A stretch of 64,000 nt of DNA, taken from Natronococcus sp. A-GB7 (GTDB lineage Archaea; Halobacteriota; Halobacteria; Halobacteriales; Natrialbaceae). The position numbers and the translations under genes are program-made. Below the pieces are notes generated by a model. It was given only the letters and a program-made list of their open reading frames with translations, had not been told where the DNA came from and searched no databases. This document shows positions 49,556 to 55,349 of this stretch, piece after piece. How positions within the stretch are numbered: the stretch's first letter is position 1; each line of letters starts with the position of its first letter. The stretch is from positions 124,001 to 188,000 of the forward strand of contig NZ_JARUKV010000002.1 of assembly GCF_029688865.1 (NCBI RefSeq). The letters run 5' to 3'.

Positions 49556-49831
49556 TCAGACGTCGACGTAGCGACTGACCCACTCCTGGCGCTGCTGGAG
49601 TTCGCGTCGACCTTTCGGCGTCAGCGCATAGTAGTTCGTCCGTCGGTCGAGCTGGCCCTTCTCGATGAGTTCCTTCTCGACGAGCGCGTCGAGATTCGGA
49701 TACAGCCGGCCGTGCGTGACCGGCTGATCGATGTACTGGTTGATATCGTCGAGGATTTCCTGCCCCGACGGTCGGTCCTTGCCCGCGATGACGTACAGCA
49801 AGTCGCGCTGGAACCCGGTTAGTTCGTCCAT
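49556..49831 (-). CDS. PadR family transcriptional regulator
   Basis: A 91-residue winged-helix regulator. It begins MDELTGFQRDLLYVIAGKDR and has QEILDDINQYIDQPVTHGRL, YPNLDALVEKELIEKGQLDR and TNYYALTPKGRRELQQRQEW, the PadR pattern of recognition helix followed by the wing and a C-terminal dimerisation helix. Short PadR proteins of this type are common in haloarchaea. An AT-rich box (TTATAG at 49874-49879, minus strand) about 43 bp upstream may be its promoter. Target unknown; the divergent NUDIX gene is a candidate. Confidence 0.9.
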   Translation of the reverse strand: MDELTGFQRDLLYVIAGKDRPSGQEILDDINQYIDQPVTHGRLYPNLDALVEKELIEKGQLDRRTNYYALTPKGRRELQQRQEWVSRYVDV

Positions 49832-49965
49832 GGAGTATCCTCTGAATGGCGACCTTCAGCGATCTGTGGCTTTGTTATAGAGCAGGTACGTTCGCCGGCC
49901 CGAGCGGAACGCACTGCATAGTCGATTCGACCTCCCGCTACTCGATCGCGGTTCGGATCCGTGAC

Positions 49966-50001
49966 GGGGCGTTTTTTACGTCGAGAACCGTAGCCGGCGT
50001 T
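49966..50001 (+). promoter_or_regulatory. probable TATA promoter of the NUDIX gene
   Basis: A run of T followed by A (CGTTTTTTACG, about 49969-49979) lies roughly 25 bp before the ATG at 50002, in GC-rich surroundings. This fits a leaderless haloarchaeal promoter. The gap is shared with the PadR gene reading the other way. Confidence 0.45.
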
Positions 50002-50556
50002 ATGCCGACCGATCCGCTCGCCTGGGAAACCCTCGAGAAACGGACGTCGTACTCCTGTCCGGGGTTCGACGTGATCACCGAAACCGTCCGGCTTCCGGAC
50101 GAGACCGAAACCGAGTTCGACTACGTCTCGGAGCCGGCGAGCGTCTGCGTCCTGCCGTTTACGCCCGACGGCGACGTCGTCTGCATCGAGGAGTGGCGCC
50201 AGGCGGTCTCGCGGATCAACCGCGGGCTCCCCGTCGGCGGCACCGAACCCGACGACGACGACCTCGAGGCCGCGGCCAGGCGCGAACTGGCCGAGGAGAC
50301 CGGTCACGAGGCCGAGCGACTCGAGCCGCTCGCGACGGTCGAACCGGCAAACGGGATCGCCGACTCCGTCATGCACTTTTTCGTCGCCTACGGCTGTCGT
50401 CCCTCCGCCGAGCAGCGCCTCGATCACAACGAGAGCATCCGCCCGACCGAGACGACCCTCGAGGAGCTCACGGAGGCGGTCCGTACCGGGGAGATCCGCG
50501 ACGGCAGGACGGTGCTGGCGCTGTCGTACTACCGACTGTTCGAGGCGGACGAGTAG
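50002..50556 (+). CDS. NUDIX hydrolase, ADP-ribose pyrophosphatase-like
   Basis: A 184-residue NUDIX protein. The NUDIX helix is in RGLPVGGTEPDDDDLEAAAR followed by RELAEETGHE; relative to the consensus G-x5-E-x7-REUxEExGU the first Glu position reads Asp. Upstream it has YVSEPASVCVLPFTPDGDVV and EEWRQAVSRINRGLP, typical of the ADP-ribose pyrophosphatase branch, which hydrolyses ADP-ribose and similar nucleotide sugars. The ATG at 50002 is chosen from the promoter position; an in-frame upstream extension is unlikely. Confidence 0.87.
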   Translation: MPTDPLAWETLEKRTSYSCPGFDVITETVRLPDETETEFDYVSEPASVCVLPFTPDGDVVCIEEWRQAVSRINRGLPVGGTEPDDDDLEAAARRELAEETGHEAERLEPLATVEPANGIADSVMHFFVAYGCRPSAEQRLDHNESIRPTETTLEELTEAVRTGEIRDGRTVLALSYYRLFEADE

Positions 50557-50654: not shown

Positions 50655-51962
50655 TCAGCGCAGGACTGCGATCGAGGGCGTTTCGTCCTCGTCGTCCTCG
50701 AGGTCGTTCTCCTCGTCGTCGGTCTCTTCGTCGGCCTCGTCGTCGGTCACTTCCTCGAGGTCCTGGGCGTCCCCGAGCGTGACGGTGTCGGCGTTGGCGT
50801 CGGTGACCGAGATCATGGAGGCGGAGGCCTGGGAGACCGTTTCGGTCGTGGCCTCGTCGTTCTCCTCCTCATCGGTCGCATCGACCTCCTCGTCCTCGGC
50901 AGCGTTCTCGTCCTCGTCAGCCGCGTGGTTCTCCTCGTCGGCTTCCTCGAGCGACTCGATCGTCATCGAGTCGAAGGTGACCTCCTCGACGTCGAACTGC
51001 TCGATGGTGAGCTCCTCGATCTCCTGGGTTTCGCCGTTCTCGTCCTCGGCAGCATCCTCCTCGTCGGCCGCGTCGTTCTCCTCGTCGGCCGCGTCGTCCT
51101 CGTCTTCGGTGGCGTCCTCGGCGTCGTCGTTCTCGTCCTCGTCAGCCGCGTCGTTCTCCTCGTCGTCGCCGAAGATCCCGTCGAACCAGTCACCGATATC
51201 GTCGAGGAGGCCGCCGTCCTCGACGGTCAGCTCGTCGATCGTCATCTGTTCGACGTCCATCGTCTCGATAGTTAGAGTCTGGATCGTGAGTTCGCTCGCG
51301 TCCTCGTCGATCAGATCCTGACCGTTCTCGGGTGCCTCGTCGTCCGCGGCGTCGTCATCGTTCATTTCCTCGTCCGTCTCGTCATCCGCGAGGTCGTTCT
51401 CCTCGTCGGCTTCCTCGGTTTCCTCGTCGTCCATCATCTCGTCATCGTCCATCATCTCGTCGTCGTCCATCATCTCGTCGTCGTCCATCATCTCGTCATC
51501 GTCCATCATCTCGTCATCGTCCATCATCTCGTCATCGTCCATCATCTCCTCCTCGTCGAGCTCGAGGTTGTCGATCGAGACGTCCTCGAGGGTCAGCGAC
51601 TCGAGCTGGATGTCCGAGATCGTCACGTCCTGGGCGGTCTCGGTGTCGGCAGCGTCATCGTCCTCCTGGTTCTCTTCCGCTTGGTCCTCCTCCTGGTTCT
51701 CTTCGCCGTTCTCGTCGAGTTCCTCCTCGAGGTCCTGCGTGTCGGCCTCGAGTTCGTCGACGTTCAGTTCCTCGATCGTCGCGTCCTCGATCGTCACTTC
51801 CTCGAGGTCGAGGGTTTCGACCTGGACGTTCTCGAGCGTCGCGCTCACGTCTCCGGCGTCGTCGCTCGCGCCCGCTGACGCGCCGGCGAGGGCGGGACCC
51901 CCCGAGAGCGCGACCAGCAGTGCGACGAACACGACGCCGAGTTTCTGTACGTTTGAAACCAT
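50655..51962 (-). CDS. exported hyperacidic pentad-repeat protein, paralogue A
   Basis: A 435-residue predicted secreted protein. The N-terminus MVSNVQKLGVVFVALLVALS is a Sec signal ending ALA-GAS, cleavage near residue 26. The mature protein alternates five short modules of hydrophobic pentads with hyperacidic linkers. Module 1 (46-75) reads VQVET-LDLEE-VTIED-ATIEE; hydrophobic residues fall at exact five-residue spacing (V48, L53, I58, I63, V68 and V46, L51, V56, A61, L66, L71), as in pentapeptide-repeat beta-solenoids. Linkers contain E-M-M-D-D-D repeats and long Asp/Glu runs. No C-terminal membrane anchor or sorting signal is seen. Paralogue B follows upstream. Confidence 0.78.
   Translation of the reverse strand: MVSNVQKLGVVFVALLVALSGGPALAGASAGASDDAGDVSATLENVQVETLDLEEVTIEDATIEELNVDELEADTQDLEEELDENGEENQEEDQAEENQEDDDAADTETAQDVTISDIQLESLTLEDVSIDNLELDEEEMMDDDEMMDDDEMMDDDEMMDDDEMMDDDEMMDDDEMMDDEETEEADEENDLADDETDEEMNDDDAADDEAPENGQDLIDEDASELTIQTLTIETMDVEQMTIDELTVEDGGLLDDIGDWFDGIFGDDEENDAADEDENDDAEDATEDEDDAADEENDAADEEDAAEDENGETQEIEELTIEQFDVEEVTFDSMTIESLEEADEENHAADEDENAAEDEEVDATDEEENDEATTETVSQASASMISVTDANADTVTLGDAQDLEEVTDDEADEETDDEENDLEDDEDETPSIAVLR
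51431..51548. repeat. 18-bp in-frame tandem repeat, six and a half copies
   Basis: The unit CCATCATCTCGTCATCGT (with A/G variation at one position) runs from 51431 to 51538 in six copies, then a partial seventh to 51548. On the coding strand it encodes the hexapeptide M-M-D-D-D-E. Copies are nearly identical at DNA level, so recent expansion by slippage is likely and copy number may vary between strains. Confidence 0.9.
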
Positions 51963-51990
51963 GCGAGCCGACCGTGGTCGGTAGCCGAGC

Positions 51991-52010
51991 TAAAACGAGC
52001 CGACTGTTAC
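51991..52010 (-). promoter_or_regulatory. shared upstream box of hyperacidic paralogue A
   Basis: On the minus strand the 20-bp stretch starting GTAACAGTCG and ending CTCGTTTTA is repeated with one mismatch at 53657-53676 upstream of paralogue B. Both copies end exactly 28 bp before their ATG. The TTTTA part is a plausible TATA box and the distance fits a short or absent leader. Confidence 0.7.
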
Positions 52011-52260
52011 GGTGTCGTGCTCGAGACAAGCCCGAATTAGCGCCCGACCCCGTCGTCCTAATCGGTCGTTCACTCCGACCGGATCGGCGGCAGCTTGCGA
52101 TCGAAACCGGATACGTCAGCTCCTCGACAATCCGAACGCGACGGGCAGTAGTACTCCGCGAGAACAGGACGTTTACTCACGGCATCGAAAAGAAATCGCG
52201 GTCAGTCCGCGGTCGGCACCGCCGACCGACCGGAACCGGTCGATCTCGCGTACAAACCGG

Positions 52261-53628
52261 TTAGCTCAGCGTGGCGATCGAGGGGAGACCGTCGTCGTTC
52301 TCCTCCTCGTCGTCATCGTCATCGAGCAGTCCGTTGTCGTTCTCCTCGTCGTCGTCGATCGCCTCGAGCTCCGCGGCGTCGCCGAGCGTCAGCGTGTCGA
52401 CGGTCGCGTCACCGATCGAGATCGACGATGCGGACGCCTGGCTGACCGTCTCCTCGGCGGTGTCGGTCTCATCGGCGTCCTCGTCGTCCATCTCGTCGTC
52501 CTCAGCCGCGTCGTCCTCCATCTCCTCGTCGTCGTTCATCTCGTCGTTCGCGTTCTCCTCGTCGTCAGGCGCGTCCTCGGCGTCAGCTTCCTCGACCGAC
52601 ATGGCGGTCATCGAGTCGATGGTCATCTCCTCGACGTCGAACTGTTCGATGGTGAGCTCGTCGATCTCCTGGGTCGTTTCGTCGTCCTCAGGTGCGTCCT
52701 CGTCATCCATTTCCTCGTCGGCGTTCTCCTCGTCCTCGGCCTCGTCGTCGTTCATCTCGTCGTCGGCGTTCTCCTCGTCGTCGACGCCGTTCTCTTCGTC
52801 TTCAGCGGCGTCCTCGTCATCCATTTCCTCGTCGTCGTTCATCTCGTCGTCATCGACGGTCAGCTCGTCGATAGTGAGCTGCTCGACGTCCATCGTCTCG
52901 ATGGTCAGGGTCTGGATCGTGAGCTCGTCAGCCTCCTCGTCGATCAGATCCTGGCCGTTCTCTTCGGCCTCGTCGTTGTCGTCCTCGAGCAGGCCGTCAT
53001 CGTTCTCCTCGGCCTCGTCGTTGTCGTCGTTCAGGAGGCCGTTATCATCGTTCTCCTCGTCGTCAGCTTCGTCGGCCTCCTCGTCATCGACGCCGTTGTC
53101 CTCCTCGTCGACGTCGTTCATCTCGTCCTCGTCGAGTTCGAGATCGTCGACCGAGACGTCCTCGAGCTCGAGCGACTCGAGTTCGATGTCGGTGAGGGTC
53201 ACCTCGTCGGCGTCATCGTCGTTCATCTCGTCTTCGTCATCGGCGTTCTCTTCGTCATCGACGCCGTTCTCTTCGTCATCGACGCCGTTCTCCTCGTCAT
53301 CGACGCCGTTCTCTTCGTCCTCAGCTGCGTTCTCTTCGTCGTCAGCCGCCTCGTCCTCGTCAGCGGCGTCGGCGTTCTCGTCGAGTGCGTCCTGGAGTTC
53401 TTGCGTATCGGCGTCGAACTCCTCGACGTTCAGCTCCTCGATGGTAGCGTCTTCGACCGTGACGCTGTCGAGTTCGAGGCTCTCGACCTGGACGTTCTCG
53501 AGTGTTGCGCTCATGTCTCCGGCATCATCGCTCGCGGCTGTGGACGCTCCGGCGAGGGCAGGACCCCCCGAGAGAGCGACCAGCAGTGCAACGAGGACGA
53601 CGCCGAGTTGTTGCGATCGTGAAACCAT
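52261..53628 (-). CDS. exported hyperacidic pentad-repeat protein, paralogue B
   Basis: A 455-residue paralogue of the preceding protein. Same Sec signal (MVSRSQQLGVVLVALLVALS, then GGPALAGAS) and the same five pentad modules in order: VQVES-LELDS-VTVED-ATIEE; VTLTD-IELES-LELED-VSVDD; LTIQT-LTIET-MDVEQ-LTIDE; LTIEQ-FDVEE-MTIDS; and ISIGD-ATVDT-LTLGD. Modules are nearly identical between paralogues while the acidic linkers differ (E-N-G-V-D-D-E repeats here instead of M-M-D-D-D-E). Start at 53628 is preferred over an in-frame ATG three codons earlier because of the identical spacing to the shared promoter box. Confidence 0.78.
   Translation of the reverse strand: MVSRSQQLGVVLVALLVALSGGPALAGASTAASDDAGDMSATLENVQVESLELDSVTVEDATIEELNVEEFDADTQELQDALDENADAADEDEAADDEENAAEDEENGVDDEENGVDDEENGVDDEENADDEDEMNDDDADEVTLTDIELESLELEDVSVDDLELDEDEMNDVDEEDNGVDDEEADEADDEENDDNGLLNDDNDEAEENDDGLLEDDNDEAEENGQDLIDEEADELTIQTLTIETMDVEQLTIDELTVDDDEMNDDEEMDDEDAAEDEENGVDDEENADDEMNDDEAEDEENADEEMDDEDAPEDDETTQEIDELTIEQFDVEEMTIDSMTAMSVEEADAEDAPDDEENANDEMNDDEEMEDDAAEDDEMDDEDADETDTAEETVSQASASSISIGDATVDTLTLGDAAELEAIDDDEENDNGLLDDDDDEEENDDGLPSIATLS
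53245..53338. repeat. 21-bp in-frame tandem repeat in paralogue B
   Basis: GTTCTCTTCGTCATCGACGCC and near copies start at 53245, 53266 and 53287, followed by two degenerate copies to about 53338. It encodes the heptapeptide G-V-D-D-E-E-N. As in paralogue A, the repeat lies in an acidic linker and keeps the reading frame. Confidence 0.85.
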
Positions 53629-53656
53629 GCGGGCCACGCTACACCCAGCCGGAGAG

Positions 53657-53676
53657 TAAAACGAGACGACTGTTAC
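53657..53676 (-). promoter_or_regulatory. shared upstream box of hyperacidic paralogue B
   Basis: Minus-strand copy of the 20-bp box also found before paralogue A (19 of 20 identical), again ending 28 bp before the ATG. Conservation of both sequence and spacing, while flanking DNA differs, points to a selected promoter element. Confidence 0.7.
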
Positions 53677-53870: not shown

Positions 53871-55349
53871 ATGCGCGAGTGCTTCGAACTCCGGGACGCC
53901 GACGCCGGCGGCCGTATCGGCGAACTCACCGTTCCGCGAGCGGACGTGACCGTCGAGACGCCGGCGCTGTTGCCGGTGATCAACCCGAATCTGGACACGA
54001 TCTCCCCCCGTCGGCTCGCCGAGGAGTTCGGCGCCGAGATTCTCATCACCAACTCCTACATTATCTACGGCACCGAGGACGTCCGAGAGGCCGCCCTCGA
54101 GGACGGACTCCACGAGCTGCTCGACTTCCCAGGCGCGATCATGACCGACTCCGGCTCCTTCCAGCTCGCGGAGTACGGCGAGATCGACGTCACCACCGAG
54201 GAGATCCTCGACTTCCAGTACCGGATCGGCTCGGACATCGCCACCCCAGTCGACATCCCGACCCCGCCGGACGTCTCCCGCGAGCAGGCCGAGGACGAAC
54301 TCGCGACCACGCAGGAACGCCTCGAGATCGCCGAGACCGTCGATACGGGCGAAATGCTCGTCAACGCGCCCGTCCAGGGATCGACCTATCCCGACCTTCG
54401 TGAGGACGCGGGCCGACACGCGGCCGGAACCGACCTCGACGTCTTCCCCGTCGGCGCGGTCGTCCCCCTGATGAACGACTACCGCTACGACGACATGATC
54501 GACGCCGTTGCGGGCGCGAAACGCGGGCTCGGGGCCGACGCACCCGTCCACCTCTTCGGTGCTGGCCACCCCATGATGTTCGCGCTGGCCGTCGCGATGG
54601 GCTGTGACCTGTTCGATTCCGCGGCCTACGCGCTCTACGCCCGCGACGACCGCTACCTGACGGTTCGGGGTACTCGCCATCTCGAGGACCTCGACTACAT
54701 GCCGTGTTCGTGTCCGGTCTGTGTCGCCCACTCGCCCGACGAGTTACGAGCGCTGCCCGACCGGGAGCGCGAGGAGGAGCTCGCCGCCCACAACCTCCAC
54801 GTCACCTTCGAGGAGATCCGCCGGATCAAGCAGGCGATCCGCGCCGGAAAGCTACTCGAGCTGGTCGAACAGCGCGCCCGGGCCCACCCGACGATGCTCG
54901 ACGGCTACCGCACGCTGCTCGACCACGCCGACCAGCTCGAGCGCTCGGATCCGGTCTCGAAGGGCGCCTTCTTCTACACCTCCCACGAGAGCGCCCGCCG
55001 ACCCGAGGTGCTGCGCCACCACCAACGCCTCGACCGGCTCTCGGTACCCGACTCGCTGTTTCTCACTGAGGGCGACTCGGACAGCGAGCGCTACGACGAC
55101 TCCTGGCGGGTCCAGCCGCCGTTTGGCCCCTTCCCGCGGGCGCTCTCGAAGAGCTACCCGCTCACCGCCGAAGTCCCCGAGCGAACCGACCGCGGCGCGC
55201 TCGAGGCCGCCGCCGACGGCGTCGCTCGCCTGGTCGAGTGCAATCCCGAGACCGAGTTCGCACTCGGACACCAGGGATGGCCGGCGGACGTGCTCGAGCG
55301 GATACCGGATGACGTCGATCTCGTCGATCTGTTCGGAGAGGATGGCTGA
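53871..55349 (+). CDS. tgtA: archaeosine tRNA-guanine transglycosylase
   Basis: Exchanges guanine 15 of archaeal tRNAs for preQ0, the first committed step to archaeosine. The 492-residue protein has the TGT barrel with [42 protein letters not shown] (catalytic Asp in the D-S-G-S-F-Q motif), [18 protein letters not shown] and [20 protein letters not shown], then the zinc site around CSCPVC and the C-terminal extension typical of archaea. The ATG at 53871 (MRECFELRD) is preferred over the in-frame upstream stretch. arcS, the next enzyme, is encoded 1.3 kb downstream. Confidence 0.95.

Follow-up and report, generated by a model that had tools for sequence, protein, structure and literature searches.

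How do two neighbouring, extremely acidic proteins of a haloalkaliphilic archaeon fold, and what could they do once exported? The 64,000-nucleotide stretch of the Natronococcus sp. A-GB7 genome analysed here (the window) carries two tandem genes, A and B, whose products alternate five short modules of five-residue periodicity with long charged linkers. The initial annotation had read them as independent one-turn mini-solenoids on a polyanionic string. Its coordinates for the two genes hold, and a closer look at their relatives points to a different arrangement of the modules.

Two tandem genes for predicted secreted acidic proteins

The two reading frames, with the parts of A outside its modules, are as follows.

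50655..51962, minus strand: paralogue A, 435 aa, helix-bearing type (ORF and 45-member alignment)
52261..53628, minus strand: paralogue B, 455 aa, helix-less type (ORF and B-type clade in the tree)
51879..51962, minus strand: predicted Sec-type signal peptide of A, residues 1-28, ending in GPALAGA (from sequence; conserved in the family)
51162..51215, minus strand: amphipathic helix GGLLDDIGDWFDGIFGDD after module 3, in A-type proteins only (AF2 helix 253-264 and presence by paralogue type)
50658..50678, minus strand: hydrophobic C-terminal tip PSIAVLR of A, recurring in many homologues

A Sec-type N-terminus (MVS..GVV.VALLVALSGGPALAGA) can be read in both sequences, in line with the export signal first proposed, and neither N-terminus contains a lipobox Cys. 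After the signal peptide, Asp and Glu make up 47% of A and 49% of B, for net charges of about -190 and -211, respectively. No surface anchor was recognised in A or B; the PGF-CTERM (archaeosortase) anchor is absent, the C-termini being acidic and ending in a short tip such as PSIAVLR.

An undescribed haloarchaeal family

As suspected from the sequence, A and B match no described family above cut-off in Pfam or NCBIfam, and literature searches on haloarchaeal pentapeptide-repeat surface proteins found nothing. The family is real, widespread in haloarchaea and undescribed: a full-length search finds members in 33 of 61 genomes, and a profile of the modules alone has matches in 100 of 293 genomes of the order, from at least five families. 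The host groups with Natronococcus, and A shares 87% identity with an N. amylolyticus gene. At the sensitivity used, the window's genome has no further members beyond A and B. The plasmid collection gave zero matches and the viral contigs zero relatives, so a viral origin is not indicated. The strongest fetched match outside the order, from the phylum search (L142), consists of 91 residues of perfect LTVDG-type repeat interrupted by in-frame stops; we rejected it as a homologue, its likeness being of pentad type only.

In the host's family, A/B-type genes occur in one or two tandem copies between a TGT gene and a NUDIX gene, followed by a PadR-type gene, and many loci have an added DUF4397 gene. 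In the window the neighbours are:

53871-55349: TGT gene (PF01702)
49846-50556: NUDIX gene
49556-49831: PadR-type regulator gene, two genes away, conserved in most loci

Outside the host's family, homologues occupy a second recurring locus (L144, L147, L148, L149), between genes that we take, by sequence recognition only, to encode an isoaspartyl-peptidase-like and a methionine-aminopeptidase-like protein.

In a tree of the modules, B-type proteins, which lack the helix, group in a single clade that spans several genera; A and B are therefore old paralogues. This cross-genus clade led us to reject a recent duplication, although the lineage's own A gene branches close by (support 0.86), which may reflect gene conversion. 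One helix-less outlier (L062:7663-10107) sits elsewhere than the typical locus. L046 is also labelled helix-less, yet its helix, missed by the text pattern, is visible by eye.

A strict pentad register in five ordered modules

The modules were placed as follows; all lie on the minus strand.

51738..51842: A module 1, residues 41-75, 7 pentads
51552..51626: A module 2, residues 113-137, 5 pentads
51216..51320: A module 3, residues 215-249, up to 7 pentads
50937..51026: A module 4, residues 313-342
50754..50843: A module 5, residues 374-403
53404..53508: B module 1
53128..53202: B module 2
52849..52953: B module 3
52582..52671: B module 4
52363..52452: B module 5

Hydrophobic residues fall at two fixed positions in five, in all five modules of both proteins. 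Against whole-protein shuffles, hydrophobic pairs are in excess at lag 5 (z = 7.0 for A and 8.1 for B) and in deficit at lags 4 and 9. When shuffled within modules at matched composition, the observed score of modules 1-4 was equalled in 0-4 of 20,000 trials; module 5 shows a weaker periodicity (lag 5, P = 0.01; register, P = 0.001). The five-residue rhythm on which the first description was built thus survives composition-matched shuffles.

The same register runs through the 45 aligned homologues, in which its two positions are hydrophobic in 94% of cases, versus 4% for the other three. Modules 1-4 are free of indels in 45/45, and the number of modules and their order 1-2-3-4-5 are fixed in all homologues except one, where module 4 is duplicated; this duplication is seen in an 815-aa member (the outlier L062:7663-10107, genome G033), which also has extra Tyr/Asp repeats. 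That the modules are under selection, as proposed, is supported. Between host and N. amylolyticus, the dN/dS of the modules is 0.20 (A) and 0.08 (B).

Two details of the first description need trimming. The modules are indeed short, as it had them, but do not share one length of about five pentads or one turn: counting weak flanking pentads, they hold about 7, 5, 7, 6 and 6, that is 1.25-1.75 coils of a four-pentad coil. Near-identity between the paralogues applies mainly to module 3 (31/35 residues), against 79% overall (123/155).

The modules more likely form one solenoid

In the AF2 model of A, built on a 45-row alignment, the modules appear as strands with block mean pLDDT up to 90, the linkers mostly lie below 50, and helices are placed at 76-89 and 253-264 (mean pLDDT 57, pTM 0.47). 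Far from disorder throughout, the modules are predicted as ordered β-structure. A compact homologue, L042, reached a pTM of 0.53. Assuming errors of 3 Å and 27 Å, independently placed modules would give a pTM of about 0.13 and jointly placed ones about 0.34-0.39; to reach the observed values, around 215 residues must share one frame. On the pTM and DSSP readings, it is more likely that the modules stack into one solenoid than that they form separate beads.

Profile searches lean towards a pentapeptide-like fold. Pentapeptide_4 matches 10 of 16 linker-free module strings (best E = 4.7e-6), with scores under the curated 38-bit cut-off (12 bits for A, 17.9 bits for its linker-free modules). The best two matches of a profile search against solved structures are the adhesin 3pet (E = 0.027) and the pentapeptide-repeat protein 2j8k (E = 0.26), both β-solenoids; the full alignment found zero matches among the solved structures. 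Foldseek, run with two models, returned no significant match, with rmsd of 13-17 Å to the β-helices listed. Its lists, in which nothing is significant, consist mainly of right-handed β-helices, plus SV2A, which carries a pentapeptide-repeat luminal domain (PMC8145042). The pentapeptide-like β tendency first noticed is thus retained, on the strength of AF2 strands and weak profile matches.

Two other arrangements of the same modules have to be weighed. The proteins might be disordered in the cell, their pentad modules being sticky β-segments through which separate molecules join up in a fibrous or gel-like matrix, its solubility governed by the anionic spacers. β-modules with exposed edges and charged spacers would suit such an assembly, and the close match of module 3 in A and B would permit co-assembly; the uniform module order and the confident strands of a monomer model fit an intramolecular fold instead, and we regard the assembly as unlikely.

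Somewhat less probable again is the beaded string of the initial annotation, in which each module folds alone as a one-coil mini-solenoid between inert acidic spacers. It has in its favour that the modules are short and 23-150 residues of low-complexity linker apart. Yet both pTM values lie well above the 0.13 expected of it, the five different modules keep their number and order in 44/45 homologues whereas beads should duplicate and be lost freely, and a lone 5-pentad coil would leave its edges exposed and partnerless.

Hypervariable loops that follow lifestyle

Described earlier as Asp/Glu-only, the linkers are rich in these residues but also contain N, A, M, G and T, and the third linker of A opens with the amphipathic helix LLDDIGDWFDGIFG. 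They measure 23-150 residues across the 45 homologues and hold tandem repeats of 12-63 bp (TRF), a likely source of length change. Two examples, both on the minus strand, come from the window:

51427..51557: 18-bp repeat between A modules 2 and 3, encoding EMMDDD, 7.3 copies, 96% match (TRF)
53231..53340: 21-bp repeat between B modules 1 and 2, encoding DDEENGV, 5.4 copies (TRF)

Linkers are variable, and those of A and B unalignable with one another, as had been stated; to call them free spacers goes too far, for within a lineage they stay either acidic or rich in sequons. Aligned between host and N. amylolyticus, they show several-fold more divergence than the modules at both site types, with ratios of 0.18-0.21 that depend on an unreliable alignment and imply that the linkers are not free of constraint.

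Their chemistry varies with habitat. The Asp and Glu fraction of the mature proteins spans 0.25 to 0.57 and drops as sequon density climbs (Spearman -0.74), loops being acidic and sequon-poor in alkaliphiles and sequon-rich in neutrophiles. Median sequon density at the named loci, Halorussus left out, is 0.24 per 100 aa in 30 proteins of genera that we class as alkaliphilic versus 7.2 in 25 from other genera (Mann-Whitney 1e-8, not a clean test since the classes are our own and the species are related). Most of the sequon-rich members have 14-34 sequons where about 3-6 are expected. Alkaliphiles have near 0, with about 0-1 expected in loops where S and T are scarce, and for this reason we do not claim depletion below chance. 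Module 1 changes in parallel (N-A-T versus D-A-T), and Natronoglomus is an exception to the trend. Halobiforma and the host's genus each include both states, and the switch between glycan and acid therefore probably happened more than once.

Loss of N-glycosylation is rejected as the origin of sequon-poor loops, since the window's genome and those of almost all relatives encode the oligosaccharyltransferase AglB. The loops of neutrophiles are probably densely N-glycosylated. Neighbouring DUF4397 proteins (L043, L053, L056, L060, L063 and other loci) also have acidic linkers, with 0-0.6 sequons per 100 aa in most and 2.7-3.4 in three; as they lean the same way, the trend may be general for secreted proteins.

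Specific binding of Ca/Mg or nucleation of minerals by the acidic loops, to which the net charges and DDDE runs could point, is improbable, as NET sequons replace much of the acid in neutrophile orthologues, so that carboxylate density is not the conserved feature, and Pfam and NCBIfam searches of A and B returned no EF-hand or RTX profile.

A predicted promoter element at the family's genes

Each of the two genes is preceded by a 21-bp element at the same distance:

51990..52010, minus strand: GTAACAGTCGGCTCGTTTTAG, promoter element of A, 27 nt upstream of the ATG
53656..53676, minus strand: GTAACAGTCGTCTCGTTTTAC, promoter element of B, 27 nt upstream of the ATG

The fixed 27-nt spacing supports the ATG chosen as the start of B. 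Each of the 45 aligned genes has a version of GTAACAGTC-NN-CTCGTTTTAG upstream, 27 or 28 nt from the ATG in 44 of them; at L062, where an earlier start is assigned, the spacing is 15 nt. With up to 3 mismatches allowed, the element matches at two sites in the entire 4.88 Mb host genome, one before A and one before B, and a reversed control at none. Among 61 genomes, all 43 matches listed fall, by coordinates, at family loci; the scanned homologues outside the host's family lack the element.

TTTTAG, at about -30 from the ATG, suits the TATA box of a leaderless transcript, and GTAACAGTC is a putative upstream regulator site. Blocks flanking the element recur too (TGAAC..ATTAG, GATAAT). The PadR-type protein encoded nearby is a candidate regulator.

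A proposed envelope protein

We propose, with a probability of roughly 0.5, that A and B are secreted split solenoids, whose stacked coils carry long anionic or glycan-bearing loops, serve as a brush in the envelope and are expressed from their own promoter element. The fold is probable; the surface-coat role we infer from composition alone.

After Sec export, to which the signal peptides point, the five modules would pile up, coil after coil, into one small β-solenoid, right-handed and pentapeptide-like, as the AF2 summary, the register and the fixed module order suggest. The four inter-coil connections and the C-terminal tail would be long disordered loops, polyanionic here and in other haloalkaliphiles. 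Such a compact scaffold would display a hydrated anionic brush in the cell envelope, keeping water and cations around the cell. Attachment may be by the uncapped ends of the solenoid, by the hydrophobic tip at the C-terminus or, in A, by the amphipathic helix. Expression would be driven by the element that, in each genome searched, appears confined to these genes.

The broader claim is more tentative: that this is a new architecture kept in many haloarchaea, a β-solenoid with giant hypervariable inter-coil loops and a single-target promoter element, in which N-glycans are swapped for carboxylates as the host moves from neutral to alkaline brine.

Should the proposal hold, haloarchaea would have in common an envelope protein, unstudied and under tight regulation, whose fold-forming segments are interleaved with loops that can vary in chemistry. 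The family would then offer a natural experiment on surface hydration and charge, glycans in neutral brines against carboxylates in soda brines, and a solenoid in which tolerance of very long inter-coil insertions can be tested. The promoter element would be specific enough to lead to its transcription factor. Glutamate-derived envelope polymers are already a theme in Natronococcus, as the wall of Natronococcus occultus is a glycosylated polyglutamine (PMC4243693).

Comparison with known systems

The top match among solved structures, 3pet, a putative adhesin of the DUF2807 family, spans modules 2-5; its E value of 0.027 is not significant, and it lacks strict pentads and acidic loops. CARDB-domain haloarchaeal surface proteins resemble distant members outside the host's family, several of which end in a CARDB-like domain (24.1 bits in L066, cut-off 22.7). 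A and B lack this domain, as do the remaining aligned proteins from the host's family; all of them have an acidic or sequon-rich tail instead.

Halomucin of Haloquadratum walsbyi is likewise secreted and surface-associated in a haloarchaeon, an analogy of role only. It is proposed to protect against desiccation, and the protein of one strain is about 9159 aa long and contains C-type lectin domains; pentad modules are not reported for it (PMC4378361). Halomucin-type proteins are mucin-like giants of more than 7000 aa, far above the lengths of A and B.

There is also a likeness to pentapeptide-repeat proteins (Pfam Pentapeptide_4 and _3; MfpA, QnrB1, the SV2C luminal domain), with which A and B share hydrophobic residues at i-2 and i and a predicted β-structure. 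As to the right-handed quadrilateral β-helix of this superfamily, AF2 gives modules made up wholly of strands and a pTM that suits a joint fold, but Foldseek gave no significant match. The consensus of these proteins is of the A(D/N)LXX type; pentads of A and B have I, V or L at i, a hydrophobic residue at i-2 that is usually a bulky L, V or M and not Ala, and T, D or E at i-1. Their loops follow every module, and the curated cut-off is not reached. By definition, a pentapeptide-repeat protein has at least 8 contiguous repeats (PMC8145042), and with a longest run of 7 pentads (modules 1 and 3) A and B fall outside it. Inter-coil loops in known members measure 8 and 12 residues in QnrB1 and 24 in Rfr23, and the SV2C luminal domain, which is lumenal and glycosylated, has about five coils (PMC8145042). 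A and B may work like these proteins.
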